A stretch of DNA of 26,038 bases, taken from the IMG/VR virus record IMGVR_UViG_3300042988_000617, positions 1-26,038 of that record; one strand, given 5' to 3'. This document shows positions 9,961 to 25,802 of this stretch, piece after piece; position 1 is the stretch's first letter, and each line of letters opens with the position of its first letter. A model generated the notes under the pieces. That model was given only the letters and a program-made list of their open reading frames with translations, ran no database searches and was not told where the DNA came from. The translations under genes and the position numbers were made by a program. The DNA is from a virus.

Positions 9961-10683
9961 TTGAGATTTAGGCCACTGCCTACACAGCAACGCATATCGA
10001 AAGCTTTTCGCTATAACGCCTTGACTGGTCAAGTCGAAATAACCGGATCTCGGGCACACATCATCATAAACCGAGACGGTTATGCGACCTTTTCCATGCT
10101 CAGGAAAAACTTCATGCTGCACCGATTGATATGGAAATTGCAGACCGGGGAAGATCCTGGCGCAATAGACCATATCAACGGAAGTCGCGCCGATAATCGA
10201 TGGGAAAACCTTAGAGAGTGCCCCGACGGTCAAGGCAACAACATGCAGAACTTTCGGGCCGCACACAAAGACTCCCGAACGGGACTGCTGGGCGTCTCTA
10301 TTGATCCTCGGCCTGGGCGGCGGTACTACGCTCGCATTACATCCAAAGGGAAGAATTACAACCTTGGAACTTATGCGACCGCCGAGGAAGCCCATCAGGT
10401 GTATTTGTCGGCCAAAAAGCACCTGCATGAGTTTGGGAACCTTGATGGAAACCCCGCCCTCGTCGCTACCGCATACCAAAAGATGCCGCGCCGGCAGAAC
10501 AAAACCGGAGTAGCTGGCGTGTGGCCCAGGTACAACGGGCGCTTCCAGGCCAAGATCCGTGTTGACGGGAAAACTATTCATCTTGGGACGTTCCGCACGG
10601 TTGAGGAAGCGTCGGCCGCGTATCAGGAAGCCCGGAACCGCTATCGTCCCCGGCTTGCGCTAAACGGCGACGATCCTCAATAA
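9961..10683 (+). CDS. HNH endonuclease with two AP2 DNA-binding domains (homing-type), opposite strand
   Basis: A 240-aa protein, and one of only two supported plus-strand genes here. No ATG is available in frame; TTG 9961 is used because GGAG lies eight bases upstream. Residues 50-90 hold the HNH core: H54 (MLHRLIW), then IDHINGSRADNR with D70, H71 and N73, and WENLRE. Two AP2-type domains follow: residues 107-152 (GVSIDPRPGRRYYARI, then LGTYATAEEAHQVY) and 183-228 (GVAGVWPRYNGRFQAKIR, then LGTFRTVEEASAAY). HNH-AP2 proteins are mobile homing endonucleases common in phages. The gene interrupts the minus-strand tail operon, and its 3' end overlaps the cupin-like gene by 110 bases in antisense. 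Base composition looks less GC-rich than its neighbours. Confidence 0.9.
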   Translation: MRFRPLPTQQRISKAFRYNALTGQVEITGSRAHIIINRDGYATFSMLRKNFMLHRLIWKLQTGEDPGAIDHINGSRADNRWENLRECPDGQGNNMQNFRAAHKDSRTGLLGVSIDPRPGRRYYARITSKGKNYNLGTYATAEEAHQVYLSAKKHLHEFGNLDGNPALVATAYQKMPRRQNKTGVAGVWPRYNGRFQAKIRVDGKTIHLGTFRTVEEASAAYQEARNRYRPRLALNGDDPQ

Positions 10684-11113: not shown

Positions 11114-11337
11114 CACACCACCGCCCCTGTGGCATCGACCCACAGCGAACCGTCGAACCAGATCGGTTTCCCGAGGTCGCTGTCGAAGTACATCTGCCCG
11201 GCGAACAGCCCGACCGTGGGGCGCCCGACCGTGGGGCCTGCGGTGGGCAGTCTCAGCGCTTGGTAGACCGCCTGGAACCACATCATCCAGCTTGGCTGGC
11301 TGAAGGGATCGCGGAGGGGTGGCGGTGGGATACTCAT
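11113..11337 (-). CDS. Small (74-aa) phage tail-associated protein
   Basis: A 74-aa protein starting at ATG 11337, overlapping the upstream stop by four bases (ATGA), which decides the start although the frame is open further upstream. The N-terminus is Pro-rich (MSIPPPPLRDPFSQPSW); the C-terminus (GQMYFDSDLGKPIWFDGSLW) is a short beta-hairpin pattern seen at the ends of many phage tail and fibre proteins. The gene sits directly after the gp10-like gene, where P22 encodes the gp26 tail needle. It is far too short for gp26 (233 aa) and has no coiled coil, so it is not called a needle. Confidence 0.72.
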   Translation of the reverse strand: MSIPPPPLRDPFSQPSWMMWFQAVYQALRLPTAGPTVGRPTVGLFAGQMYFDSDLGKPIWFDGSLWVDATGAVV

Positions 11338-13361
11338 GCGGTTTTCACCGTGGCGGCAATGATGGCAATTTTGACCGGATCGGAGACGCGGAGCTTCCAC
11401 GTGCGCCGCCAGGAGCGGCCCAGGCGCCGGAAGATGACGCGCCGGGTGTAATCGCCCTCCGCACCAATCGCCCCGGTGACCGGCTGGCACCACGTATGCC
11501 CGGCGTCATCGCTCCACTGCAGCATCAGCTCGGGGTGGGCCGTCACGGGCGAGGTATCAAGGAAGGGCGCAACAGGCACCGGGAAAGCGCCGTCGTACTG
11601 CGCGAAGCCCTTGGTAATCCGGATCTCGGCGACATTGCCGAAGAGGAAATTCGCCGCCAGGTAGCTGGAGCCGATCACCAGCGGGGCCGTCGTGCCGTAG
11701 TCCGTGGCATCGGTGTAGGGCGTGCCGGGGGTGCCGTTCAGGTACAAATTCGTGACACCGTTCTTCCGGCACAGTGCGACGTGGTGCCAAGTGTCCGCGG
11801 TATACCCGGTGCTGATCGTGATGCGGGTGGTGGTCGAGAAGTAGCGCAGGGTGTTGGCGTTTTGGAAGACCACCGGGGCGTCGGTGGTCGAGCCGGTGCG
11901 GAAGTCGAACAGCGTCCGGTTCTGCGCCGTGCCCTCCGGGTACAGCCAGCACTCTAGCGTGAAATCCCCGGTCCCGAAGCCGAAGCGGGTATCCGAGGCC
12001 ACATCCAGGGCGGCCGTCAGGCCGTCAAAGACGATGCTGGAGCCGAGGAATTTGCTGATGGCGGTGTCGGTCTGCACGCTGCCCACGGGCGTTAGGACAT
12101 GCCCGCCGACCGCATCCACAAAGGTGGTCCCGCCCTCGGCGCCGTTGCCGTGACACAAGAGAACCACGTTGTCATAAGCGGGATTCGACTTGTCTACGGG
12201 TTGCCCGCGTTCCATGTCGATCTGCACGGATTGGTAGCTGACGAGCTTCTCATCGCTACCCAGCGTGGGGCTGACCAGCTCGCGGATGATCGTCTCGCCG
12301 GCGTCGGTGTAGAGGTCGAGGTCCATCGCGTACAGGCAGCCATCAATGCGGCTGCCGACCACATGCTTGCGATCAAAGAAGGCATACGCGATGCCCCAAT
12401 GGGCGCCCCCGGCGCTTTGCCGCTCGTGCCAGGTCGAGGTCGTCAGATCGAGTACCCAAGTCGCGTTCCCTGATGGGAACGTGATCACGTAGAACACATG
12501 CCCCTCAGCGGTGTAGCCATAGGCCCGCGCATCGTCCAGGCGCGGATACCGGGTCCATTGGTATTCGACGGCTTCGGTGCTCAGGCGCTCGGTCTGGCTG
12601 CCGCCCGTGTTGGACACGACAAAGCCAGCGCCCTGGGGGGTGGTGGCAAGCCACAAAATCTGGTTGCCCGTCTCGCCCACCTTGGCCACGCTCGCAGGTG
12701 CCAGGCAGCCGAGGTTGCTGACCGCGCCATCGACGCGGCGGAAGACCGAATCCGGATCCCCGGCGTTGTAATGCAGTTCAAGCGTCTGCTGCCCGAACAC
12801 GTACAGCAGGCCAAAGGTCGAAGCCACCGCCACGACGTTATCCGGGCCTGCTTCAGCGCTGTTGAAGTCGAGACCGTTCCATGTGGAACCGTCATAGAGG
12901 GCGCTGTAAAAGTAGGTGTTGGTGCCCTGCGCGTTGGCGATGAAGTAGCCGTCCAGAAAGGTCACGGTATCCGCCACCGGCATCGTGGGGATCAGCGCAT
13001 AGGTGCTGGTGCTGGGCGTGTACAGGTGCCCATTGATGCCGTCCACCACGATCAACTGCGTGCCGTTGTGGGCCATGCTGACCGGCCCCACACCGCTGTC
13101 CAGAGTGCCGCAGGTGGTGGGCACGTAGCCGCTCGTCAGTTTGTACAGCGTCGGCCCGGCGACCACGTAGAGGAACTCCCCCATCACCAACATGCCCCGC
13201 ACGGCTGCGGTGCCGAGGCTGTGCAACGGCTCCAGGCCCGGCGTGCCCAGCACGATCGGGCGTTGATCCAGGGTCATGTGGGGGTACAAATTCAGATACC
13301 TGACCGCGCCCGCATTGACGCTGCGCCCGGTCTGCTGGCCGACAAAGGGGATGATGGGCAT
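11334..13361 (-). CDS. P22 gp10-like packaged-DNA stabilisation protein with an inserted LamG-like lectin domain
   Basis: A 675-aa protein; start ATG 13361 shares a base with the upstream stop (TAATG). The N-terminal ~385 residues look like repeating beta-blades (LIVVDGINGHLY, LDGYFIANAQGTNTYFYSAL, VFGQQTLELHYNAG), and the C-terminus (ELMLQWSDDAGHTW, then RRVIFRRLGRS and LRVSDPVKIAII) is the signature end of gp10 tail-accessory proteins, which plug the head-tail channel. Between these two parts, residues ~397-600 form a concanavalin A/LamG-like domain: VVLLCHGNG, GSSIVFDG, GTGDFTLECWLYPE, WHHVALCRKNG, LYLNGT, IRITKGFAQY. Removing this insert leaves about 470 residues, essentially the length of P22 gp10 (472). 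The lectin-like insert may display a glycan-binding surface on the tail. Confidence 0.85.
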   Translation of the reverse strand: MPIIPFVGQQTGRSVNAGAVRYLNLYPHMTLDQRPIVLGTPGLEPLHSLGTAAVRGMLVMGEFLYVVAGPTLYKLTSGYVPTTCGTLDSGVGPVSMAHNGTQLIVVDGINGHLYTPSTSTYALIPTMPVADTVTFLDGYFIANAQGTNTYFYSALYDGSTWNGLDFNSAEAGPDNVVAVASTFGLLYVFGQQTLELHYNAGDPDSVFRRVDGAVSNLGCLAPASVAKVGETGNQILWLATTPQGAGFVVSNTGGSQTERLSTEAVEYQWTRYPRLDDARAYGYTAEGHVFYVITFPSGNATWVLDLTTSTWHERQSAGGAHWGIAYAFFDRKHVVGSRIDGCLYAMDLDLYTDAGETIIRELVSPTLGSDEKLVSYQSVQIDMERGQPVDKSNPAYDNVVLLCHGNGAEGGTTFVDAVGGHVLTPVGSVQTDTAISKFLGSSIVFDGLTAALDVASDTRFGFGTGDFTLECWLYPEGTAQNRTLFDFRTGSTTDAPVVFQNANTLRYFSTTTRITISTGYTADTWHHVALCRKNGVTNLYLNGTPGTPYTDATDYGTTAPLVIGSSYLAANFLFGNVAEIRITKGFAQYDGAFPVPVAPFLDTSPVTAHPELMLQWSDDAGHTWCQPVTGAIGAEGDYTRRVIFRRLGRSWRRTWKLRVSDPVKIAIIAATVKTA

Positions 13362-14062
13362 TATTGCCCCCCCGTCAGATCATAAAACCCTGCCGGCTCG
13401 CGTATCTCGGGGATCTTGGTGATGGACCGATCCATCAGGATCTCTTTGCGCTTGGCGTAGGGTAGATCCTGGCCGATAAGAATGGCGTTCAAGCGCTGCA
13501 GGTCCGACACCAGATCCAACTCTGCCGCGGTTAGGGTGTTGCGGTTCATGCCCTCGAAACGCCCCGATAGCACTGCCGACACCAGCCTCGCCTCATTCAT
13601 GTAGTGATGGGGCTTGGTTGCCTTCCCTGCCGCCTCCCGGCGTTCCTGCAGGGTGCGGCTCATCCATTCATAGCCGACCTTGGTTTTGTCGCGGAGCTGC
13701 CGCCAGTCCGGATCACGCTGTTGACGGGCCAGGCGTTCGAGTTCGCGGCGCATCTTCTGAAACGCACCGATGAAAGTCTCTTGCCATTTGACCGCCTCAG
13801 GGCCAGTAAACCGCATCGCGATAAACATGAACCCCTCTTCGGTAACGAGGTAGGCTTTTTCCTGTTTTCCGTTCTCAGCGAGGTACGAGGACTCCGCAAA
13901 ATTTGCGGAGTGAAAAGCCTCCGAACAAGGCAAAGACTCGATCTTTCTCAGCACGAAATCGTGCCGCTTTCCAAACTTCTCGGCAATGAGAATGCTCGTG
14001 GTGAACGGTTGGCCGTTCTGGATGACAACGAGTTCGTCTTTAGATACGCTTGCACGCGCCAT
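13361..14062 (-). CDS. rha: Rha-family phage regulatory protein (antirepressor-like)
   Basis: A 233-aa protein. The frame runs upstream to 14158, but ATG 14062 (MARASVSKDELVV) has an AGAGG Shine-Dalgarno eight bases upstream and is the natural N-terminus. Residues 10-105 match the Rha pattern: VVIQNGQPFTTSILIAEKFG, KRHDFVLRKIESLPC, YLVTEEGFMFIAMRFTG and an F-x-x-M-R-R-E-L end. Residues 110-233 are helical (WMSRTLQERREAAG, MNEARLVSAVLSGRF) and form a separate C-terminal domain I cannot name. Rha proteins are phage-encoded regulators linked to lysogeny control or lytic interference. Finding one between the gp4-like and gp10-like genes, on the same strand, is unusual, and a 10-bp hairpin precedes it. 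It may act as a late-expressed modulator; that is inference. Confidence 0.82.
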   Translation of the reverse strand: MARASVSKDELVVIQNGQPFTTSILIAEKFGKRHDFVLRKIESLPCSEAFHSANFAESSYLAENGKQEKAYLVTEEGFMFIAMRFTGPEAVKWQETFIGAFQKMRRELERLARQQRDPDWRQLRDKTKVGYEWMSRTLQERREAAGKATKPHHYMNEARLVSAVLSGRFEGMNRNTLTAAELDLVSDLQRLNAILIGQDLPYAKRKEILMDRSITKIPEIREPAGFYDLTGGQ

Positions 14063-14098
14063 GACATACACCTCTGTATCAGGTTTGTTGTGGAAGTG

Positions 14099-14127
14099 TC
14101 CGACCACCCCCCCAAGAGGTGGTCGGA
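14099..14127 (-). other. 10-bp perfect inverted repeat (hairpin) upstream of rha
   Basis: TCCGACCACC (14099-14108) and GGTGGTCGGA (14118-14127) form a perfect GC-rich 10-bp stem with a nine-base C/A-rich loop, in the 98-base gap between the gp4-like stop and the rha start. Neither strand has a U-tract after it, so a simple intrinsic terminator is unlikely. It could be an operator, an RNA processing site, or a translational control element for rha. Confidence 0.6.
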
Positions 14128-14160
14128 TGCGATCTAAATTAGCACATTCGTGCGCCATCC

Positions 14161-14862
14161 TTACGGCCCCGCGTAGACGATCCAGCGACGGCCCTCGCCC
14201 GCGGTGCGTAGCATGGGATCCATCGCAATGGTCGGGGTGCGTTGGTTGATCCGCTTGAGGTTCCGCAGCGACTTCTCGGCCAAGCGCTTGAGGTCCGCGC
14301 CGGCTTCAATCTGGTATTCAGGCGCGAGCCGAAGGGCGAGGTTGTACCGGATCGCATCCGCGTAGCCGGGGGGCAGGGAAATCACGCTGTACAGCGTGTC
14401 GAAGCCCGTTAGGGGCTTCTCGCTCACGGTGTTGATGGTGTTGCCCGTGGGGATCGGCCAGAGGTACAGCTTGCCAAGCGGGTAATCGGGCTCGTAATAG
14501 CCGTAGATCGGCCAGGCGGTTGTGAGCGTCTTGAGGCGGATCGCCTCGTAATCGTCCACGCCCAACAAGGTGAGCGGGTAATCGACCGTCGCCACCCTAA
14601 CCGTGGCCTGCAGCAAGCGCGCTGGGCGCGCGCTGTTGAACGTGCCCCCGATCCCCCAAGTGTGGGGATTGAGCGATGCGGTGAGGGTGAACGTTTCCCT
14701 CGTCGCGTGGTAAAGGGTGAGGCCTTCCGTGGCCCACGATTCGAGCATCCATTGCAGGGCCTCGAGGGCGTCCTGCGACTCTTGGTCGGTGAGAGTCGTG
14801 TTCCCGGTCAGAACGTTGAGCGGACGCAGGGCGCCCTTGATCAGATCCAGCGCGGTCGTCAT
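14161..14862 (-). CDS. P22 gp4-like head-completion/tail adaptor protein
   Basis: A 233-aa protein starting at ATG 14862 with AAGGAG eight bases upstream. The N-terminus (LDLIKGALRPLNVL, then DALEALQWMLESWATEGL) matches the helical start of P22 tail accessory factor gp4-type proteins, which join the portal to gp10 and close the head. The central part (PLTLLGVDDYEAIRLK, YYEPDYPLGKLYLWPIP) and the helix YADAIRYNLALRLAPEY are shared with this family in many podoviruses (family knowledge). It is longer than P22 gp4 (166 aa). It lies between the decoration-like genes and the gp10 homologue, interrupted only by rha, consistent with the P22 order 5-4-10. Confidence 0.85.
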   Translation of the reverse strand: MTTALDLIKGALRPLNVLTGNTTLTDQESQDALEALQWMLESWATEGLTLYHATRETFTLTASLNPHTWGIGGTFNSARPARLLQATVRVATVDYPLTLLGVDDYEAIRLKTLTTAWPIYGYYEPDYPLGKLYLWPIPTGNTINTVSEKPLTGFDTLYSVISLPPGYADAIRYNLALRLAPEYQIEAGADLKRLAEKSLRNLKRINQRTPTIAMDPMLRTAGEGRRWIVYAGP

Positions 14863-15396: not shown

Positions 15397-16092
15397 TTAA
15401 TCGACGTCTTTGTACACTTTCCGAGCCCGAATGAGCCCGATCATGGCCTTGGATATGTCGAACCTGATGATTAGGTCGTTGATGGATTGGTTCTTGTCGC
15501 GGATAAGGCGAACGTCATCGGGTTGCAGCGATCTGGGGCGGCCAAACGACTTGCTTCGACCCTTACGGATCATGTCTTGCGTGTTGTCGTTGTTGTCGCC
15601 CAAGAAGAGATGCTTCGGATTACAGCAGATCGGGTTGTCGCAATGATGCAAAACGCAGAGCCCGTCCGGAATAGGTCCGACCCATACCCGGTAGGCTGAA
15701 CGGTGCGCCAATTGCTCGCCGTCAATCCTCACGTGCGTCCCGTATCCTTTCGGGTTGGCGGATGACTGCCAGGGCCAGCATTCATCGTATCCACCTATCT
15801 TCACGTGCTTTCCAAGCACCTGGTGAACGTTCATCTTGCGGCTTTCGGGCAGCCCTGTTGGCGTTCCGTATGCCTTCATGCGCTGATAGTGGGCGCTGCA
15901 CAAAGTCTTCTTTTCAACCTTGCCGCAGCACCCTTCAACAGAACACACCGCATCCGCTGCGATCTTCCACACCCGGTCCCGTACTTGCGCCGGTCCTGGG
16001 TCGCCCTTCGCTTTCTTCCGCTGATAGTGCGCGCCACAGTAACCCGCGGCCTGCGCTTCTCGTTCGCACCCTTCAACTAGACAGAATCCCAT
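15397..16092 (-). CDS. HNH homing endonuclease with two zinc-knuckle repeats
   Basis: A 231-aa protein. The frame is open upstream to 16167, but ATG 16092 has a GGAGGGTGTT Shine-Dalgarno directly before it and starts the recognisable domain. Two knuckles share the spacing C-x4-C-x9-C-x2-H: C4/C9/C19/H22 and C50/C55/C65/H68. Residues 100-180 form the HNH_3-type nuclease: CWPWQSSANPKGYG, LAHRSAYRVWVG, LHHCDNPICCNPKHLFLG (His149, His150, Asn158, His161) and the NT.DM..KGR tail. A C-terminal helical segment (LQPDDVRLIRD, INDLIIRFDISKAMIG) resembles a helix-turn-helix used by homing enzymes to bind DNA. It is inserted between the coat and decoration genes without breaking either. One 60-base stretch counted by hand (15421-15480) is 53% GC. 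Confidence 0.9.
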   Translation of the reverse strand: MGFCLVEGCEREAQAAGYCGAHYQRKKAKGDPGPAQVRDRVWKIAADAVCSVEGCCGKVEKKTLCSAHYQRMKAYGTPTGLPESRKMNVHQVLGKHVKIGGYDECWPWQSSANPKGYGTHVRIDGEQLAHRSAYRVWVGPIPDGLCVLHHCDNPICCNPKHLFLGDNNDNTQDMIRKGRSKSFGRPRSLQPDDVRLIRDKNQSINDLIIRFDISKAMIGLIRARKVYKDVD

Positions 16093-16166
16093 AACACCCT
16101 CCGCATAAATCGAAGGACTATGGTGCCTAATTTGTAGGCTTCTGTCTAGCATGGCTTCCTTATCCA

Positions 16167-16193
16167 AGGTTAAGTTGCTGTTTCGCTTAACCT
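16167..16193. other. 8-bp inverted repeat spanning the coat gene stop
   Basis: AGGTTAAG (16167-16174) and CTTAACCT (16186-16193) form an 8-bp stem with an 11-base loop. The coat stop codon (16187-16189) lies inside the left arm as transcribed. No U-tract follows on the minus strand. It sits at the edge of the inserted HNH gene, so it may be an insertion scar, an RNA-stability hairpin protecting the coat message, or a weak terminator. Confidence 0.45.
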
Positions 16194-17449
16194 ACAAGCT
16201 TACACGCCAGTTCAGGGTAAATGGCCTTCCACCCATAGAGGACATCCAACCTTGAGATGTGCGTATCAGTGAGCGCATCGTACCAACCCTTCACGAGGCG
16301 GATACTCAGCCCCGCAGCCTTGCTGCTCGCCCGAGCCGCTTCGCCGTTGCCCTGCGGCAATGGCAGGTCAGCGCAGGCCAGGGTGTAAGCGTTCTTGTGG
16401 AACGCCAGGTTGACCGGGTAGGCGTTGGCCCCGTAGCCCTGCAACGACGTGATCGTCGCGTTATTCACAAACGCGCCGGTGGAGCTGTAGACGTTCTGGA
16501 ACGGCCCCGAGAAAACGGGATACGGCAGGATCTTTATGGACGTATCGCCGCTCGTGTAGGCCTCCGCCACGACGAAGTTCTTCAGTTGGCCGGTAGAGAC
16601 GCGGCTCTGCGGATTGACCGCATAGACAGAACCGAAGGTCACGCTTGTGCCCGCCGCGATATTCGCGCCGATGTTGTTCACCGCGAGGGTGTACGGGGTC
16701 GTTGCGTCCGACTGCACGGTCAGGGTCGCGCCAGGCGTCCCGTTGACGGTGTTGGTCTTGGCTGCGCTCAGCCCGGTCGCCGTGTGGGCGATGACGTTCT
16801 GATCCCGCACAAAATTGAACCCTAAGACGCTGTCGGCGACGTAGCCTTTGTCGAACTGGCGGCTGATCTTGGTCGGGTTGTTGAACAGGCTGGAGTGCGC
16901 CTGCACGATGCCGGTGTTGGTCGCGGGGGAGATGACCATGTAACGGTCCTCGTCCATCGGGGCCGCTTCTTCATCCAGCCTCTGCCCTGCCGCCAGGATC
17001 GCCGCAATCGCCTGCGCGCTGGTCGGGGTGCCGATCAACTGGCCAGGGGTGCCGACCGCGTTGTGCGTGACCGCGGACATGGCCGACAGCCCGTCATAAT
17101 CGATCTTGTTGGCAATCGCCGCCATTGCCGGGGCAATGATGCGCTGCTTGAAGTCGTCCATGCTCAACGCCAGATCGGCGCTGGTGAACGCCATCGCGAC
17201 GTTAGCCTGGGTGGTCAACGTGACGGGAACATAGGTTTCCACCGATGCCTGCGGCTCGATCACCGGGCCGGTCCCGACCGTGTAGCGGGTCGGCTTGCGG
17301 ACATTCAAGGTTGCCCCAATTTTCGCCCCACTCACGGCGAATTGGTCATCGTATGCGCGGTTTACATGCTTGGAAAAGCCAAGCATGTTCTCCAAAATCT
17401 CCAACGCTTCAAACGTGATCTTGCTGGTAGTTAAAAGTGTGTTAGCCAT
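16187..17449 (-). CDS. Major capsid protein, P22 coat (gp5) type
   Basis: A 420-aa protein starting at ATG 17449 with AAGGTG upstream, eleven bases after the scaffold stop. The N-terminus (MANTLLTTSKITFEALEILE) and the segments KIGATLNVRKPTRYTVGTG, VPVTLTTQANVAMAFTSADL and RIIAPAMAAIANKIDYDGL are characteristic of the P22 coat family, HK97-fold capsid proteins. The length is close to P22 gp5 (430 aa). The central part, about residues 220-330, is beta-rich and may correspond to the inserted I-domain of P22 coat. The C-terminus contains the conserved AFHKNAYTLACADLPLP and SIRLVKGWYDA blocks. Position directly after the scaffold supports the call. Confidence 0.95.
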   Translation of the reverse strand: MANTLLTTSKITFEALEILENMLGFSKHVNRAYDDQFAVSGAKIGATLNVRKPTRYTVGTGPVIEPQASVETYVPVTLTTQANVAMAFTSADLALSMDDFKQRIIAPAMAAIANKIDYDGLSAMSAVTHNAVGTPGQLIGTPTSAQAIAAILAAGQRLDEEAAPMDEDRYMVISPATNTGIVQAHSSLFNNPTKISRQFDKGYVADSVLGFNFVRDQNVIAHTATGLSAAKTNTVNGTPGATLTVQSDATTPYTLAVNNIGANIAAGTSVTFGSVYAVNPQSRVSTGQLKNFVVAEAYTSGDTSIKILPYPVFSGPFQNVYSSTGAFVNNATITSLQGYGANAYPVNLAFHKNAYTLACADLPLPQGNGEAARASSKAAGLSIRLVKGWYDALTDTHISRLDVLYGWKAIYPELACKLVG

Positions 17450-17460
17450 GATCGTTCACC

Positions 17461-18384
17461 TTACTTGCGGGCGGAATGTTTCAGCGCGCGCCATGCGTCA
17501 TAGTTCCCGGCTTGTTCCAGCGCTTCCAACTGCTGATCGAGGTTGATCGCAGGCGCCGCACCGGACCCACGGAGCGGGCTAATCGGGGCGGGGGCTTTGG
17601 AGACGGGTCGGGGCGTGGCGGGCGGTTCTTGGGGCGTCAAGGTGCTGATGAGCTGACCGAGGCGAACGGCTGCGTGCGCCGGGCGCATCCGCGCCAGCGC
17701 TTGCAGTTCTTCCGGGTGCGATCCGAGGTAATACGCGAGGTCCGGGCCTTGCTCGTGCGTAGCCAGGATCTCGACCACACCGGGGTTGCCTTGCAGTAGG
17801 GGCGCCAGGCGTTCGCCTGAAACCACCTCGTTGTAGTCGGCATACTTGGCCCGAGCCGCATCCTCGCGGGTGCGGATATCGGCCACAGTGCGCTGCCGTT
17901 CCTGCTCGGCCTGGAACATCGCCAGCTCTTGACGCGCCTCGTGGCGCGCCATATCCCTGAGATAGCCTCGGTCCAGTTCGCCCTCGGGGTAGCGCTCGGG
18001 GTCGGGCGGTGCGTTAACGTCTACCGGCGCAGGTTCCGGGGCTTTGCCGCCCCGGCTTTGCTCCAGCATCGCCATGGCTCGATCCAATTGAGCCTGCATC
18101 GCGTCGGCCCGGCGCTGGGCGTCGTACTTCTCGCGGGTCAGTTCATCAAGGCGCTTTTGAACGCCGCGCGGAGGCTTGGCTTTCGCTTCGGTCTCCGTTT
18201 CCTCAGTGGACGATTCTGAGTCTGAGCCCTCGTCGGGCTCTGGTGCGTCCGGTTCGGCCGGTTCGGTCGGCGTTTCCTCGTTCACGGTCACGAGGCTTTG
18301 CGCATAAGCCACTTGATCCGCGGGCGTGGTCACAACGATTCGAGGGGCTTCCGCCCCGCTTTCTGCGGGTAAGGTTTCAGTCAC
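17461..18384 (-). CDS. Capsid scaffolding protein, P22 gp8-like position
   Basis: A 307-aa protein. The frame extends to GTG 18417, but GTG 18384 has GGAG six bases upstream and is preferred. Residues 1-70 are disordered and acidic (repeated PAEPDAPEPDE and Ser/Glu runs). Residues 75-185 are long charged helices (VQKRLDELTREKYDAQRRAD, ARQELAMFQAEQERQR) predicted to be coiled coil. The C-terminus is short, helical and basic (YDAWRALKHSARK), like the coat-binding helix-turn-helix of P22 scaffold. Length is very close to P22 gp8 (303 aa). It lies immediately before the coat gene and after a terminator, with its own likely promoter. Confidence 0.85.
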   Translation of the reverse strand: MTETLPAESGAEAPRIVVTTPADQVAYAQSLVTVNEETPTEPAEPDAPEPDEGSDSESSTEETETEAKAKPPRGVQKRLDELTREKYDAQRRADAMQAQLDRAMAMLEQSRGGKAPEPAPVDVNAPPDPERYPEGELDRGYLRDMARHEARQELAMFQAEQERQRTVADIRTREDAARAKYADYNEVVSGERLAPLLQGNPGVVEILATHEQGPDLAYYLGSHPEELQALARMRPAHAAVRLGQLISTLTPQEPPATPRPVSKAPAPISPLRGSGAAPAINLDQQLEALEQAGNYDAWRALKHSARK

Positions 18385-18462
18385 ATGGTTCTCCAGCGAA
18401 GGGAGTGCGCGCCTCACGGCGTGGGGGAGCCCGGTTTGTGGTGATCCGGTAACACTCGCGCG

Positions 18463-19391: not shown

Positions 19392-19558
19392 TGACTACGC
19401 AAAAAGAAAATAAGACGCGCACCCTCCACACCCGCATCAAGCAGAGTACGTGGGAAAAGATCGCGGCAATGGCCGAAGCCGACGGGCGAACCGTGACCGG
19501 CTGGCTAGAGTGGATCGTTGAACGCGAGTACGCGAAAAGCGGCCTTAAGACCCCGTGA
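19391..19558 (+). CDS. Ribbon-helix-helix-type (Arc/CopG-like) small regulator (55 aa)
   Basis: A 55-aa plus-strand frame at ATG 19391, divergent from the cassette and overlapping the portal 3' end by 14 bases. It reads MTTQKENKTRTLHTRIKQST, then WEKIAAMAEADGRTVTGWLE and WIVEREYAKSGLKTP. A basic beta-strand (TRTLHTRI), helix A (STWEKIAAMAEADG), a T-x-x-x-W-L turn and helix B (WLEWIVEREYA) match the RHH fold of Arc, CopG and Mnt regulators (family knowledge). Such proteins are dimeric operator-binding repressors. The promoter overlap suggests it represses the cassette and itself; two ATGACTAC copies lie in this intergenic region, one of them at its own start. No partner toxin is recognised, although an antitoxin role is not excluded. 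Confidence 0.68.
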   Translation: MTTQKENKTRTLHTRIKQSTWEKIAAMAEADGRTVTGWLEWIVEREYAKSGLKTP

Positions 19559-21698
19559 TCGGCGCCCCGCCCTGGTTTGTATTGCTAGCAGGAACAGGGA
19601 ACGGTTCACGCATAGCACGCTCATGGGCCTCTTGCTTGCGTTCGCCCTCTTCGACGAGGAGGGTTAATTTTGCCAGCTCGGCCTCCAGGTCGAACTCCTT
19701 CCGCATCGCCTCTTGTGGGTCTTGGGCTTGGGCCTGTTCTGGCTTTAAGAGGGCCATGCGTTTCGTCTCGGCCTCGTATTGCTGAACCTGCAAAGCGCCG
19801 GATTTTATCTGTAGCTCACCCTCTTTCAGTCCGCGCTCATCCGCTGCCAACTGGAGCTGCTGCTGAAGTTGCATAAGTTGCTCTTGCATCTGTTGGAGTT
19901 GTTGCTGTGCCGCCATCATCTGAGGGTCTACGTCGTCTCCTTCCGTGGCCGCAAGGATCTGAGGGGGCAGCGCGGCTTTTAGCCGGTCTGCCATTAAATC
20001 AGCGCCGGGTGCGTCCCAATTGCGGAGGATCAAATCGCCCGCAAGCTGGCCGAGTTGAGGCATTCCTTGAATGAGTTGCGCCGCGGCATCGAACGATTCC
20101 TGTCTCTTAGTGGTGTAGCTGGGTCCGGCGACTGCTACCACGTCGTACTTCCCAACAGCCAGGTTGTAAATCTTCCTGACTTCTCCGTTCTCTTCCTGAA
20201 CTTCAATCATTGCTTGGGGTTGCTGCGGGTCGTGCTCGATGTGCTCGACCTCTTCGCCGTCTTCGCCCAGGATCCGCAGAACTCTGCGCGTGTCGTATAT
20301 GGAAGGGATGAGTTGCAAAATTATGCGGCCAGCCTGGGCCACACTCTTGGAAAGATTGTCGGAAAAATGAAAAGTTGCCACCGCACCCTGTTCTTGAAGG
20401 CTGCGGATCGCTCGGCCGCTTTGGTCAGGGCCTTGGCCGCGCCCCACGCTCGGGTCTTCCATCCCTACGGCCGCGCGGATTCCTTCCACCGCAAAATTAA
20501 TTTGCTCGACATATCCCGATGGGATTGGTGGAGGCGCTTGCCGTGATGGTGCCGGTAACACGGTTCCTCCGAGCGTCGTCGGTTCATACTCCAAAAACGC
20601 AAAATTGCGAGAATTAGCCTGACTCCATTTTTCCTCAAACCCTTCAAACGCACCTGCAGGCCCCACCCAGGGAACCTTAGGCTGCAACGCGACTTGTTCA
20701 GCCACCGCACTCAGCCAAAAGTTAAGCAACTGCTGTGGAGGCTTGGCTGCTCGCACAAGCCCGCATATTTCCCGCTGTCCTTGATTCCACCATTCTTCCC
20801 CAAAAACTGGGATTATCGGCACGAAACTACAAGGCAGCTCTCCCTGCTCTAGGATCTGGTTTCCCGCGATCTTCCACCATCCGCAGGTTGTTCGGGTTGT
20901 CTTGCGGGTCTGTTGTGGTTGGTCTTCTGGTGTCAAATCGTCCGCCCAAACGGTACGGCCGTCGACCGTCAAGACAAGTTCGGCCGGCGTTTCTATCAAC
21001 TCGAAAAATTCCGCGACCCGAACAGAATCTTCCTCTAGCCAGCTCCGATCGCCCGTGGTCCCCTCGGCCCAGTCTTGAAGCTCAACGCCTGGGTAGTCCC
21101 GCTCGAACTGCTCGCGGGAAATATCTTCCACAATCATTGCCGACTTTGCGTCCGAACCGTCCGGCTGAATTGAAAAACAGTCGTAGTAAACGCGGAAGGG
21201 GTCGCTGATCAGCCTGAAGGCAATATCCTGATCCCAGGTGTCATCACTGACGTACTTTGTGTGGATTCCGAAATAGCCGCGCCCGCAATCAACGGCGTAT
21301 TCCACGGCCTTATCCAGCGCATTGCTGGCTCGGCTGACGTTCTCAATATTCCTGATGACTCCCTGAAGGATCTCGGCGACCTTCCCGTCACCCGAATCGT
21401 CAACGGGCCTGACCTTAATGCTCGGGGTGTTCTGCCGAATCTGGTTGATCACGCTCGTGCGGTACCGCTTGATGCGGTTGTCCGTCAACATCGGCCGTTC
21501 CTGGCCGGGGATGTTCCTGGCATCTCGAGCATAGGTCGGCCACTGCTCCACCCCGCCGATGCGGACGAACTTCAAATCGTCGAGCATTTCCGCTCTGACT
21601 TTGGCTTCGAAATCAGCCATAGTCCGCCACCAATCCCTAATTCTGGCCAGGAACTCGTCGTCGCTCTCTTTGGCGCTGCTGGGCTTGTCGTTCTTCAT
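19545..21698 (-). CDS. Portal protein, P22 gp1-like (internal start within the fused frame)
   Basis: Translation from internal ATG 21698 gives 717 aa, close to P22 gp1 (725 aa). AGGA nine bases upstream (21708-21711) is a credible Shine-Dalgarno. Landmarks of the P22 portal family include residues ~15-60 (DEFLARIRDWWRTM, WPTYARDARNIPGQERPMLT), NRIKRYRTSVINQIRQNTPS, LDKAVEYAVDCGRGYFGI and FRLISDPFRVYYDCFS in the core. The C-terminal third is helical and Gln-rich (MMAAQQQLQQMQEQLMQLQQ), comparable to the barrel extension of P22 portal, and ends in SNTNQGGAPITGS. The portal is the dodecameric DNA channel to which terminase and gp4 bind. Counted by hand, two portal lines (20341, 20461) are 45% and 52% GC, lower than the upstream glycosidase region. 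Confidence 0.9.
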   Translation of the reverse strand: MKNDKPSSAKESDDEFLARIRDWWRTMADFEAKVRAEMLDDLKFVRIGGVEQWPTYARDARNIPGQERPMLTDNRIKRYRTSVINQIRQNTPSIKVRPVDDSGDGKVAEILQGVIRNIENVSRASNALDKAVEYAVDCGRGYFGIHTKYVSDDTWDQDIAFRLISDPFRVYYDCFSIQPDGSDAKSAMIVEDISREQFERDYPGVELQDWAEGTTGDRSWLEEDSVRVAEFFELIETPAELVLTVDGRTVWADDLTPEDQPQQTRKTTRTTCGWWKIAGNQILEQGELPCSFVPIIPVFGEEWWNQGQREICGLVRAAKPPQQLLNFWLSAVAEQVALQPKVPWVGPAGAFEGFEEKWSQANSRNFAFLEYEPTTLGGTVLPAPSRQAPPPIPSGYVEQINFAVEGIRAAVGMEDPSVGRGQGPDQSGRAIRSLQEQGAVATFHFSDNLSKSVAQAGRIILQLIPSIYDTRRVLRILGEDGEEVEHIEHDPQQPQAMIEVQEENGEVRKIYNLAVGKYDVVAVAGPSYTTKRQESFDAAAQLIQGMPQLGQLAGDLILRNWDAPGADLMADRLKAALPPQILAATEGDDVDPQMMAAQQQLQQMQEQLMQLQQQLQLAADERGLKEGELQIKSGALQVQQYEAETKRMALLKPEQAQAQDPQEAMRKEFDLEAELAKLTLLVEEGERKQEAHERAMREPFPVPASNTNQGGAPITGS

Positions 21699-23042
21699 GG
21701 CTTTTTTTCCTGCCGTCTCACGACGGGTAGAGGTTGAAGGCGCGGGCGCTCGGCGCCCGGCCTTGGCGGAGGGGCTGCGGGCGCTGACCGGCGAAAGGTA
21801 CTTGAGCGATGAACCGCCGACCGTGGGCGGTATCTCGGGCACGGTCCAATAGTACGGGTCCACGTAGGACGGGCTCGAATCGTCCAGGGTCAGCCAGACG
21901 CCCGAACCATCCGCCTCGGCCTGCAGGTAGGAGTCGGTCAGCTCATGCAGCGCGAGGTAGGTCGCCAGGCGCGTCGTCTTGACGTAGAGGCGTTCCCGCT
22001 GCGGCTCGTACTGCGTGATGTGCGAGTGCATCGTGTTGAGGATGTACGGCATCGATGAACCCAACAGGATGGTCCCTTCAGGCCAGGCGCCGTAGGTCTC
22101 AGGGAAGCCATCGATCGGGCAGCCCGTGCTGATAGCGAAGGCGGTCGGGCCGAAGTCCTGGGCCACATCCCACAACAGCGGGATCCATGTCGCTTCCATC
22201 AGCCAGGAAACGCCATCCACAAACGCTTGAGACTCGGCCGGCGTCGAGGGGTCCACCGCCCGGGCGTTGTAGTAGTCCTGAAAGGTCTGGTTGGGATCCC
22301 GTCCCCAGGTCGTACAGAAGTCGGTGCCAACACATACCGCCAGCGTCTCGCCGATGCGGTCAGCCATCTCCGGGGCGGTGCCGCCCTCGGTGAACGCAAA
22401 GGGCTTGGTGCCCAGGTGCGAGCGCAGGAACGTCAGCCCGTTGCGGATCTGCGTCTCGGTCTCGGCGTAGAGGTGCTGCTCCAGTCCCTCGAAGTCCGCT
22501 GTATCGCGGACCATCTCACAGAGGGCCTGGGCATAGGCGTTCTTGTTGGCGGTCGTGTAGAAGGCGACATAGCCGCCCCCAGCATAGATGCGAAGCGGCT
22601 CGCCCCGAAAGTTAGTATGGCCTTGCGCCACCAAATGAGCGGCCCAGCGCTTCTGGAACTCAAGCGCGGGGTAATGCCCGGTGCCGTCGTCGGTGATGTC
22701 GGCGGCCTGGTAATCCACATTCTCATTGCCGAGGCTCAAGACCTCGACGCGCCCATTCATCGCCGCCAGGGCGCGGTCTACCCATACCCAGATTGCCGCC
22801 TCTTCGGCGCTGCCCGAGGCGGGCACGGGGTTGTCGGTGAAGTTCCAAGACCAGTAAAGCCGCAGGCCTTCCGAGGCCGCGGCGCGGAGCTTGGCGAAAA
22901 GGCGATCAGTGACCGGATCGGTGTCGGTCGTGACGTGCGCGTAGCGGATCTGAGCCCGACACCAGACGGCTTTCAACGCCCGCGCCTGCTCGCGGTTCAG
23001 GCGCTTCCAGTCTCTATCGGTATTGATCAGGAATTCGGTCAT
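19545..23042 (-). CDS. Clan GH-A-like glycoside hydrolase fused in frame to a P22-type portal protein
   Basis: One open frame of 1165 codons begins at ATG 23042, one base after the terminase stop. Residues 1-400 read as a TIM-barrel glycosidase: LRLYWSWNF near 60, SLGNENVDY with the Asn106-Glu107 pair expected after strand 4, H190-x-Y192 (strand 6), KPFAFTEGG with Glu219 (strand 7) and a Trp after strand 8 (TWIPLLWD, 285-292). This is the clan GH-A layout of acid/base and nucleophile (family knowledge). Residues 405-448 are a Ser/Pro/Ala/Arg-rich linker. From Met449 the sequence is a full portal. A GC hairpin and a composition change mark the join. The polypeptide may be made as a fusion, or the portal separately from its internal start; a one-base sequence error could also have merged two genes. 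Confidence 0.75.
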   Translation of the reverse strand: MTEFLINTDRDWKRLNREQARALKAVWCRAQIRYAHVTTDTDPVTDRLFAKLRAAASEGLRLYWSWNFTDNPVPASGSAEEAAIWVWVDRALAAMNGRVEVLSLGNENVDYQAADITDDGTGHYPALEFQKRWAAHLVAQGHTNFRGEPLRIYAGGGYVAFYTTANKNAYAQALCEMVRDTADFEGLEQHLYAETETQIRNGLTFLRSHLGTKPFAFTEGGTAPEMADRIGETLAVCVGTDFCTTWGRDPNQTFQDYYNARAVDPSTPAESQAFVDGVSWLMEATWIPLLWDVAQDFGPTAFAISTGCPIDGFPETYGAWPEGTILLGSSMPYILNTMHSHITQYEPQRERLYVKTTRLATYLALHELTDSYLQAEADGSGVWLTLDDSSPSYVDPYYWTVPEIPPTVGGSSLKYLSPVSARSPSAKAGRRAPAPSTSTRRETAGKKAMKNDKPSSAKESDDEFLARIRDWWRTMADFEAKVRAEMLDDLKFVRIGGVEQWPTYARDARNIPGQERPMLTDNRIKRYRTSVINQIRQNTPSIKVRPVDDSGDGKVAEILQGVIRNIENVSRASNALDKAVEYAVDCGRGYFGIHTKYVSDDTWDQDIAFRLISDPFRVYYDCFSIQPDGSDAKSAMIVEDISREQFERDYPGVELQDWAEGTTGDRSWLEEDSVRVAEFFELIETPAELVLTVDGRTVWADDLTPEDQPQQTRKTTRTTCGWWKIAGNQILEQGELPCSFVPIIPVFGEEWWNQGQREICGLVRAAKPPQQLLNFWLSAVAEQVALQPKVPWVGPAGAFEGFEEKWSQANSRNFAFLEYEPTTLGGTVLPAPSRQAPPPIPSGYVEQINFAVEGIRAAVGMEDPSVGRGQGPDQSGRAIRSLQEQGAVATFHFSDNLSKSVAQAGRIILQLIPSIYDTRRVLRILGEDGEEVEHIEHDPQQPQAMIEVQEENGEVRKIYNLAVGKYDVVAVAGPSYTTKRQESFDAAAQLIQGMPQLGQLAGDLILRNWDAPGADLMADRLKAALPPQILAATEGDDVDPQMMAAQQQLQQMQEQLMQLQQQLQLAADERGLKEGELQIKSGALQVQQYEAETKRMALLKPEQAQAQDPQEAMRKEFDLEAELAKLTLLVEEGERKQEAHERAMREPFPVPASNTNQGGAPITGS
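21708..21711 (-). promoter_or_regulatory. Shine-Dalgarno for internal portal start
   Basis: AGGA on the minus strand, nine bases (A6GCC) before ATG 21698. It supports independent translation of the 717-aa portal inside the longer frame. It borders an A7 run, a place where single-base errors or slippage are likely. Confidence 0.6.
21743..21759. other. All-GC hairpin at the glycosidase-portal junction
   Basis: CGGGCGC (21743-21749) and GCGCCCG (21753-21759) form a perfect seven-base-pair stem with a TCG loop, 45 bases before the internal portal ATG. No U-tract follows. It falls in the linker and could slow ribosomes, mask or expose the portal start, or be a relic of recombination. Confidence 0.5.
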
Positions 23043-23043
23043 G

Positions 23044-24288
23044 TCAGCCCATCCATGAAGAGGCGGCCTGTTGCGACGTCTTGGCGCGCTTTTCCACGCG
23101 TTTGGTCAGTGCGGGGAAGAGGTCCGTAAAGGCCCACACCAGGCCGTCAGCGCGATCGGGCGAGCCGTTGCCATCGTAGCCCGCCGCGGTGATCAGGCAA
23201 AGCTGATCTTCCAACTTCTGGAAGGTGCCGACGTGCGAGACCTTGCCCAGCGCATAGAGCGAGGCGATCGGCTCGGCCCGCACATGCTTACCGCGGGTCG
23301 CCACCACTTCAATGACGGGCAGCCCATGCCGTACCGTCCGCAGCACCTCGCGGCACATGTCGCCGCCTTGGTTGCGCTCGATCACGATCGCATCCGCACC
23401 CCATTTGTCATAGAGGGCGACGGCCCGCTCGGACCATTGCCGGGGGCTGCCCTTTAGGCTGCCATCCTCTAGCACATAGCCGCGCCGGTCCTCACCGATG
23501 CCCGCCACGATGATGCCGTGTTCGTCGCTGTCGGCCTCGTTCGATACCGCGGGATCAATTGCCACCACCGTGCGCCCCATTGCCGGGATGGTGTCCAGCG
23601 AACGCCGCCACTCGTGGAACATCTGCCGCGTCCAGATCGCACCAATGGCCGCGGGCTCGTATTCTCCGAGCCATATGTGCGCGTAGCGTTCGGGGTTGCT
23701 GGCCTCGTCGTGTTCGCGTTCCGCGACCAACTCATCGGGGAACCAGGGATTGTCCGAGAAGTTCACCCGGATGCAGATCGAATCCGGGGGCGGGGTGGTG
23801 GCGCGAAAGAAGGCATCCACCGGATCTACAGCATTGCGGGGATTCCACGAGGCCCAAATCTCCGAACCCGGCGCGCGGATGGTCGGGCGCAGCATTTCCA
23901 GGGAGCGAGCGGAAAGGGTCTGACCTTCCTCGATCCAAGCCCAATCGAAGCCTTCAAGGCTCTTGATCGATTCCGCGGTGTGGTCCTGCATCCCCTGGAA
24001 CAAGATCACCCCACCGCCTGGCGTCACGATCTCGTCGGTTTTCACCCGGAAGCCAAAGGATGATGGCAGGGCGTCGATCTTGTCCTCTAGGAGCCGTTTG
24101 GCGGATTCCTTAAGGCTCTTTTGCACCTCACGGACGCACACCCCGCGCGACTTGGAACGCAGCAGGCAGCGCTCGATTCCAAGCTCCGCGAAGAAATGCG
24201 ACTTACCCGAACCGCGGCCCCCATAAGCCCCCTTATACCGCGAGGGTTTCAGCATCGGGGCGAATACCCGCGGGGTTTTAATCTCCAT
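23044..24288 (-). CDS. terL: Large terminase subunit (TerL)
   Basis: A 414-aa packaging motor. Residues 23-30 are the Walker A motif (GGRGSGKS); residues 114-121 the Walker B with catalytic Glu (FDWAWIEE); residues 143-150 (EIWASWNP) fit the coupling motif. The C-terminal RNase H-like nuclease has Asp245 (VVAIDPAVS), Glu304 (IVIERNQGG) and Asp381 (DRADGLVWA), a full active-site set. The form resembles the PBSX-type terminase family rather than P22 gp2 (499 aa). Start ATG 24288 overlaps the small-subunit stop by 11 bases, and the stop is one base from the next gene. It acts with the portal to pump DNA into the prohead. Confidence 0.95.
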   Translation of the reverse strand: MEIKTPRVFAPMLKPSRYKGAYGGRGSGKSHFFAELGIERCLLRSKSRGVCVREVQKSLKESAKRLLEDKIDALPSSFGFRVKTDEIVTPGGGVILFQGMQDHTAESIKSLEGFDWAWIEEGQTLSARSLEMLRPTIRAPGSEIWASWNPRNAVDPVDAFFRATTPPPDSICIRVNFSDNPWFPDELVAEREHDEASNPERYAHIWLGEYEPAAIGAIWTRQMFHEWRRSLDTIPAMGRTVVAIDPAVSNEADSDEHGIIVAGIGEDRRGYVLEDGSLKGSPRQWSERAVALYDKWGADAIVIERNQGGDMCREVLRTVRHGLPVIEVVATRGKHVRAEPIASLYALGKVSHVGTFQKLEDQLCLITAAGYDGNGSPDRADGLVWAFTDLFPALTKRVEKRAKTSQQAASSWMG

Positions 24289-24652
24289 CCGGTACGACGG
24301 TCGCCTTGCCGTCGATAATGCGCCGGGTTATCTCCATCGGGGCGCCATCCTTGCCGGTATGTTCCATAACGTGTTTCTCGGACCACCCGCCCCTGGTCTT
24401 CATATAAAAACAGATAGCCCAAGCCTGCCCGCCGCGAGCGGCTTCAAAGAGCTTGTTTGTGACCACGGCCACGCCCTTGGCTTGGCCTCTTTTTACGGCT
24501 GCTGCAATCTCTGCATCCGAACTCTTGCTGTAATGGTAGGCCCGCGGGCTCATCCCGAGACAGTCTGCGATCTGTTCTTGTGTGAGCCCCTGCGCCGCCA
24601 GTTGCTCGACCTTCTCCAGATCAATGGGGGGCAGTCGGGGTTTAGCCGCCAA
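24278..24652 (-). CDS. Small terminase subunit-like DNA-binding protein
   Basis: A 124-aa protein. The first in-frame start is TTG 24652, overlapping the methyltransferase stop; no better-placed ATG exists, so this start is provisional. Residues 10-45 hold a helix-turn-helix (LEKVEQLAAQGLTQEQIADC, LGMSPRAYHYSKSS), followed by IAAAVKRGQAKGVAVVTNKL and a basic ICFYMKTRGGWSEK segment, the standard arrangement of small terminase proteins that recognise the packaging start site (family knowledge). Immediate overlap with TerL supports the call. Confidence 0.85.
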   Translation of the reverse strand: MAAKPRLPPIDLEKVEQLAAQGLTQEQIADCLGMSPRAYHYSKSSDAEIAAAVKRGQAKGVAVVTNKLFEAARGGQAWAICFYMKTRGGWSEKHVMEHTGKDGAPMEITRRIIDGKATVVPDGD

Positions 24653-25802
24653 ACTCCACCCCCGAAGATTCCAGGGTGGCGCGCTTGCCGGTGAAGGCTT
24701 GCCAGCGCTTCACGGCCACGTCCACGTATTGCGGGGAGAGCTCCATCGCATAAATAGCCCGGCCGGTCATTTCCCCCGCAATAATGGTGGTTCCTGAGCC
24801 CGAGAAAGGCTCATAGATGACTTCGCCTGTTTCACTGGTTCGTTCCATCAGCCAAGACCAGAACTTGATCGGCTTTGTGCAAGGGTGCCCGAAATCCTCC
24901 GCTGATTCCGTGTGAACGATCGCGTCAGGGTGTGATCCTTTACCCTTTTTAAGCTTTGGATCTTTGCCATAACACAGAACTGGCTGCCAACAGCAAAACC
25001 CCCATGGTCCGACACCGACACCCGCCGGGGTAAACCATGCCATCGTCCAGTCCGGATCAGGGTACTTGCGGTGATTTGTCGTCCCGGGCGTCAGCACCAC
25101 GCACGCGGCATGATGCATTGCAATCGGTAAAAAATTTGCAATCAAGCCGATCAGGTTTTCTTTGGTGTCTCGGTATTCGATATAGTTGTTCTTGTCGCTT
25201 TTGGTGTCAGCGAGCCCATACGGTGGGTCAGTCAAACATAGGTTTGCTTTCTGCCCATGCATGAGCGCAGACACGCACTCCCCGTCCGTACTATCCCCGC
25301 ACATCAGCCGATGCCGCCCCAGAAGCCATACGTCACCCGGTTGGGTAATAGCGTCCTCGGTGAGTTCGGGCACCTCGTCGGGGTCGGTCAGCCCGTCGTT
25401 GGGGGGCGCACAGGTGAGCATCTGCTCCAGTTCCTCCGACGAAAACCCCGTCAGGCTCAGGTCGATTTCCCCGGTGTCGAGGTCTTGGAGTTCGAGGCGC
25501 AGAAGGTCGAAGTCCCAGCCGGCGTTGAGGGCGAGCTTGTTGTCGGCCAGCACATACGCCCGCCGCTTGGCCTCGCTCCAATCCTGCCCGATGGTCAGCG
25601 TCGGAACGGTCTCCATGCCCAATTGACGGGCCGCTAGGACGCGCCCGTGCCCCGCAATGATGTTGCCCTTGCCGTCGATTAGTACGGGGTTGGTGAAGTT
25701 AAATTCACGAATGCTGGCCGCGAGCTGCGCCACCTGCGCGTCCGAATGCGTGCGGGCATTGCGGGCGTAGGGGATCAACTGCTCGATGGGCGTCTCAGTC
25801 AC
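24642..25802 (-). CDS. ParB-like nuclease domain fused to DNA methyltransferase
   Basis: A 386-aa protein starting at GTG 25802 with GGAGGGCGGGA upstream; it overlaps the preceding stop by eight bases. Residues 5-120 are a ParB/Srx-like domain with LIDGKGNIIAGHGRVLAARQ (GHGR at 51-54). Residues 155-386 are a class-beta methyltransferase: catalytic DPPYG at 192-196, then EPFSGSGTTI at 331-340 containing the AdoMet-binding FxGxG. DPPY is usual for N6-adenine and some N4-cytosine enzymes. It would modify phage DNA, protecting it from host restriction or marking packaging sites. ParB-methyltransferase fusions beside terminase genes are a known phage arrangement. Confidence 0.92.
   Translation of the reverse strand: MTETPIEQLIPYARNARTHSDAQVAQLAASIREFNFTNPVLIDGKGNIIAGHGRVLAARQLGMETVPTLTIGQDWSEAKRRAYVLADNKLALNAGWDFDLLRLELQDLDTGEIDLSLTGFSSEELEQMLTCAPPNDGLTDPDEVPELTEDAITQPGDVWLLGRHRLMCGDSTDGECVSALMHGQKANLCLTDPPYGLADTKSDKNNYIEYRDTKENLIGLIANFLPIAMHHAACVVLTPGTTNHRKYPDPDWTMAWFTPAGVGVGPWGFCCWQPVLCYGKDPKLKKGKGSHPDAIVHTESAEDFGHPCTKPIKFWSWLMERTSETGEVIYEPFSGSGTTIIAGEMTGRAIYAMELSPQYVDVAVKRWQAFTGKRATLESSGVEFGG

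Follow-up and report, generated by a model that had tools for sequence, protein, structure and literature searches.

A glycosidase-like domain in one reading frame with a P22-type portal in a phage population

Can a phage portal carry an enzyme at its N-terminus, and if a genome appears to encode such a protein, how did the two parts come to be joined? The portal is a ring that serves as the entrance for DNA into the virus head, and it nucleates head assembly. The stretch of DNA analysed here (the window, 26,038 nucleotides) comes from a 26-kb virus record, and a preliminary description of it had proposed a glycosidase-like domain in the same frame as a complete portal. This arrangement was confirmed, on the minus strand: the complement of 19545–23042 reads from ATG to stop as one uninterrupted frame of 1165 codons, while the plus strand of the same interval contains many stops. 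The features discussed below are collected in Table 1.

Table 1. Coordinates of the long reading frame, its parts and the neighbouring head genes, numbered along the window.
Feature	Position	Strand	Basis or remark
Glycosidase-like domain and portal, one ORF, 1165 aa	19545–23042	-	Same frame in L002 and L004
Glycosidase-like domain, residues 1–345, clan GH-A type layout, no signal peptide	22008–23042	-	Family profile and hhalign
Glu107 codon, predicted acid/base (Gly-Asn-Glu, end of strand 4)	22722–22724	-	Invariant in four-protein alignment
His190 codon (strand 6, H-x-Y/H)	22473–22475	-	Invariant in four-protein alignment
Glu219 codon, predicted nucleophile (T/S-Glu, end of strand 7)	22386–22388	-	Invariant in four-protein alignment
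Further coding sequence, residues 346–410	21813–22007	-	Frame-0 codon signal
Linker, residues 411–448, rich in Ser, Ala, Pro and Arg	21699–21812	-	Frame-0 coding signal lost
Candidate former stop of the glycosidase-like gene (TGA, -1 frame), 19 nt upstream of the portal ATG	21718–21720	-	Codon-usage switch
AGGA, Shine-Dalgarno-like, of the portal	21708–21711	-	Sequence; pairing with anti-SD predicted at -5.7 kcal/mol
Complete P22-type portal, 717 aa from Met449	19548–21698	-	PF16510, PHROG 156; start as in relatives
Terminase large subunit (TerL)	23044–24288	-	Ends one base upstream of the long frame's ATG (TGACATG)
Probable scaffold	17461–18417		Position
Coat (P22)	16187–17449		PF11651
P22 tail-4/adaptor-like	14161–14862		
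Head-closure protein, P22 gp10-like	11334–13361	-	PHROG 578

The reading frame that joins the enzyme-like part and the portal is real and no isolated assembly artefact. It is overlapped by two IMG/VR contigs that derive from other metagenomes: L002 matches the window over 4523 nt with no differences, junction included, and L004 matches over 8563 nt with 8 substitutions, all at 17542–17587, and keeps the frame across the junction. The three assemblies represent one virus population. As the junction is identical in both contigs, a chance misassembly of the linker is unlikely, and neither a stop nor an indel, which would have separated the two parts, was present between them in these independent assemblies.

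The second part of the frame, residues 449–1165, is a full member of the P22-type portals, as had been suggested. The Pfam profile P22_portal (PF16510) matched residues 469–1066 over 587 of its 594 positions (1–587, E 2e-160), and PHROG 156 matched the portal at E 5e-126. The order of the head genes is also that of a P22-type phage, with TerL upstream and the P22 coat (PF11651) downstream. The portal is 35–48% identical to many portals and 77% identical to that of one related locus, L005. Ninety-odd loci with P22-type portals were gathered (some end at contig ends) and about 85 related portals were compared. None of these ~85 proteins, whose total lengths are ~600–810 aa, has a comparable N-terminal extension, and the N-terminal domain studied here was found between terminase and portal in none of the related loci. 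The portals of these relatives start near an equivalent methionine without a large N-terminal domain, whereas the phage protein has 448 extra residues in frame before Met449. That methionine is itself intact, and the L005 portal starts at the equivalent position. The TerL–portal slot of the relatives holds little or nothing, or small ORFs, and in some cases HNH or GroES genes; L005 has an HNH gene followed by a stand-alone portal, and DSL-LC05 has an HNH gene, a GroES gene and several small genes. A portal with an N-terminal glycosidase-like domain, noted as unfamiliar at the outset, was without a match in the collections searched.

What is the N-terminal domain? Searches of Pfam, NCBIfam, PHROGs, PDB sequences and phage records gave no match to residues 1–420; for the last of these, tblastn of the domain against 50,697 records gave zero matches at E up to 10. 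Pattern scans of viral contigs returned the same virus and nothing else, and scans of genome contigs returned no relative. The domain was absent from 40 of the 42 whole records searched, the other two being the same virus. The first lead was a weak plasmid match (E 0.5) to a protein of Catenovulum adriaticum (WP_268076550.1), in which Asn106-Glu107, His190 and Glu219 align with GNE, H and TE. With this protein as query, we found homologues in Rhizobium sp. CCGE532 (E 2e-37) and Bacteroides finegoldii (WP_055279005.1, E 5e-12). A profile of the three bacterial proteins, from which the phage domain was left out, recovered that domain at E 8.8e-14 (hmmsearch) from ~4,150 target sequences that included 2,000 shuffled versions of the domain; among unrelated sequences, the lowest E was 0.26. 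Similarly, hhalign aligned the family with the phage domain over residues 18–339 at a probability of 95.7. The Rhizobium protein alone found the phage domain at 1.5e-5, and the Rhizobium and Bacteroides proteins together at 6e-9, so the homology is independent of the Catenovulum protein that was found first. By these profile comparisons, the N-terminal domain is a member of an unnamed bacterial family represented in Rhizobium, Catenovulum and Bacteroides, to which it is ~20% identical. None of the bacterial members is fused to a phage protein.

The bacterial proteins likewise lacked a match to a named family in Pfam, NCBIfam or the PDB sequences, where neither single-protein queries nor the family profile gave more than chance matches; in the same collections the phage domain matched no named family of clan GH-A. 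A separate match on a Cupriavidus plasmid covered only residues 250–399, off the catalytic motifs, and was rejected as chance.

The arrangement of conserved residues fits the clan GH-A layout. Positions invariant in the alignment of the four divergent proteins include N7, W27, R29, G105-N106-E107, G186, H190, K213 and E219, in the order expected for strands 1, 2, 4, 6 and 7 of clan GH-A enzymes; we infer the placement of the catalytic residues on these strands. The Asn-Glu, His, Glu and WxR motifs follow in the same order in all three bacterial homologues, and the 29-residue spacing of His190 and Glu219 is equal in the Rhizobium protein. Asn106, Glu107, His190, Tyr192 and Glu219 were found where the preliminary description had placed them, and the two glutamates predicted to be catalytic, Glu107 and Glu219, are conserved in the bacterial proteins. 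Two of the three bacterial genes lie in polysaccharide-degradation loci: the Catenovulum gene adjoins a TonB receptor, and its plasmid has many sulfatase, GH43 and GH28 genes; the Bacteroides gene follows a sulfatase. Judged by the conserved Asn106-Glu107, His190 and Glu219 together with these loci, the domain is, in our own estimate, likely a glycosidase of GH-A type. Single-sequence AlphaFold models were of too low confidence (mean pLDDT 35 and 41) to model a (beta/alpha)8 barrel or to serve in a fold search. Comparison of the family by hhalign with a GH5 protein from the plasmid that carries the Rhizobium homologue remained at background level, and comparison with GH5-type and control proteins of the homologues' plasmids gave no signal either way.

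Composition does not mark the domain as a recent import, a possibility that was considered and rejected: its GC3 of 0.83 fits the phage genes. The compositional outlier is the portal, which has the lowest GC3 measured (0.64, against 0.67–0.85). A further candidate relative, the protein encoded at 915–2102 on the plus strand of L005, showed no detectable relation to the domain; it is 395 aa long, has a weak GH42/beta-galactosidase-like match and lies upstream of a lysozyme-like gene.

Both parts of the frame have a start of their own. The portal has, as proposed earlier, its own ATG (window 21698) and a Shine-Dalgarno-like AGGA (21711–21708), which runs directly into an A-tract at 21702–21708. 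At the other start, the spacing between the TerL stop and the ATG of the long frame is typical of translational coupling. Predicted Shine-Dalgarno pairing is -6.0 kcal/mol for the start of the long frame and -5.7 kcal/mol for that of the portal; on these values both starts appear plausible and neither dominant. The bacterial relatives are secreted proteins with a signal-peptide-like N-terminus (Rhizobium and Bacteroides) or a longer N-terminal part, whereas the phage domain has no such N-terminus and would therefore stay in the cell until lysis or ride in the virion.

The linker between the two parts holds a trace of a possible lost stop. Codon usage in frame 0 is strong up to about residue 410–415 and again from residue 446, and poor between. 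At residues ~428–440 the -1 frame fits better, and this frame ends at the TGA at 21720–21718, just before the AGGA of the portal. The switch scored 11.8, above all 297 null cases taken from genes of the phage itself, the highest of which reached 8.8. It spans ~12 codons, however, and the null cases came from the same genes on which the score was trained, which makes it suggestive and not proof. When the linker was shuffled with its dinucleotides preserved, a given frame was free of stops in 55% of cases. Thus, an open frame here needs no selection, and a chance fusion would arise easily.

How, then, should the fusion be read? The absence of a fusion among the relatives, the stand-alone portal of L005 and the codon usage of the linker point towards a cargo gene that lost its stop. 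We lean towards this account and consider it, by a little, probable: a glycosidase-like cargo gene in the terminase–portal slot would have lost its own stop, giving a fusion alongside a normal portal from Met449. A phage-borne gene of the unnamed family would occupy the slot in which relatives hold small cargo genes. It would formerly have been separate, probably ending just before the ribosome-binding site of the portal, until a change in the linker removed the stop and extended the enzyme's frame into the portal. Initiation at 23042 would then give the 1165-aa enzyme–portal fusion, and initiation at Met449 the normal portal that builds the virion. The domain has no export signal, so any hydrolase activity would be exerted within the cell or once lysis has occurred, and the presence of the enzyme part in virions would be incidental. 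The join looks young and confined to one phage population, and may be accidental. Against this account, selection might be expected to act against an accidental extension of 448 residues on a head protein that is essential, yet the extension is fixed in three samples; in addition, no homologue was found for residues 346–448.

Do the two parts instead remain separate proteins today, the enzyme normally ending before the portal through recoding or through a length error common to the assemblies? The better fit of the -1 frame up to the TGA is what a -1 shift in the linker would leave, and the A7 at 21702–21708, proposed as an alternative site of slippage, is in register as a -1 slippery heptamer in the enzyme's frame. 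However, the A7 lies after the TGA, such that slippage there would terminate within the portal gene, and RNA structure around the junction was no more stable than chance (z -0.93). The three assemblies also agree base for base. We regard separate proteins as doubtful.

Less likely still is a working virion part, in which some or all of the 12 portal subunits bear an active N-terminal enzyme at the head–tail vertex. The enzyme would cut glycans of the host surface or released ones, and the two in-frame starts would tune a mixed ring. The single open frame fixed in three assemblies, the retention of the predicted catalytic residues and the comparable predicted pairing at the two starts are all consistent with such a role, as is the extra ConA/LamG-like domain on the head-closure protein of this phage. 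By contrast, no relative has the fusion, and codon usage makes the linker look non-coding in frame 0. In T4, head assembly requires the N-terminal part of the portal, for which contact with the capsid has been discussed (PMC4493910); a 45-kDa extension at this end would thus be a steric problem. That the N-terminal part is a decaying, hardly translated gene, with the portal from Met449 alone mattering, would fit the lack of close phage relatives but is very improbable given 410 stop-free codons, strong phage-like codon usage, a GC3 like that of other phage genes and intact predicted catalytic residues.

In all three contigs the domain has viral genes on both sides (TerL upstream, portal downstream), as expected of a virus-encoded auxiliary glycoside hydrolase. 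A GH5 endomannanase of a soil virus has been shown to be active (PMC6786970), as has a soil-virus chitosanase (PMC9485262). Like these enzymes, the phage domain is a bacterial-type carbohydrate-active gene between phage structural genes; the soil-virus enzymes are separate genes whose activity was tested, whereas the phage domain belongs to no named family and lies in frame with a portal. Searches of the open-access literature turned up no description of a portal that bears a glycosidase domain. If fused subunits do enter virions, they would place an enzyme on a portal for which that literature offers no counterpart. Even if accidental, the fusion shows how a cargo gene can become joined in frame to a core virion gene and stay so. 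It also brings out an unnamed, probably carbohydrate-active family common to soil, marine and gut bacteria and one phage.

The remainder of the window contains a P22-like set of head genes (Table 1). The extra domain of the head-closure protein is C-terminal (ConA-like/Laminin_G_3, residues ~460–582) and constitutes a second glycan-related domain of the phage, on a neck-region protein. All eight substitutions that distinguish L004 from the window cluster in 46 bp at the 3' end of the probable scaffold gene, which suggests a hypervariable or recombined patch. A Rha-like regulator and two HNH endonuclease-like genes lie scattered in the structural cluster (13361–14158 and 15397–16167, both minus strand; 9961–10683, plus strand). 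L005 matches part of the Rha-like gene at 93% identity and has it directly after the portal. Upstream of the terminase, 24642–25802 (minus strand, PHROG 498) encodes a ParB-like domain and a DNA methyltransferase in one protein.
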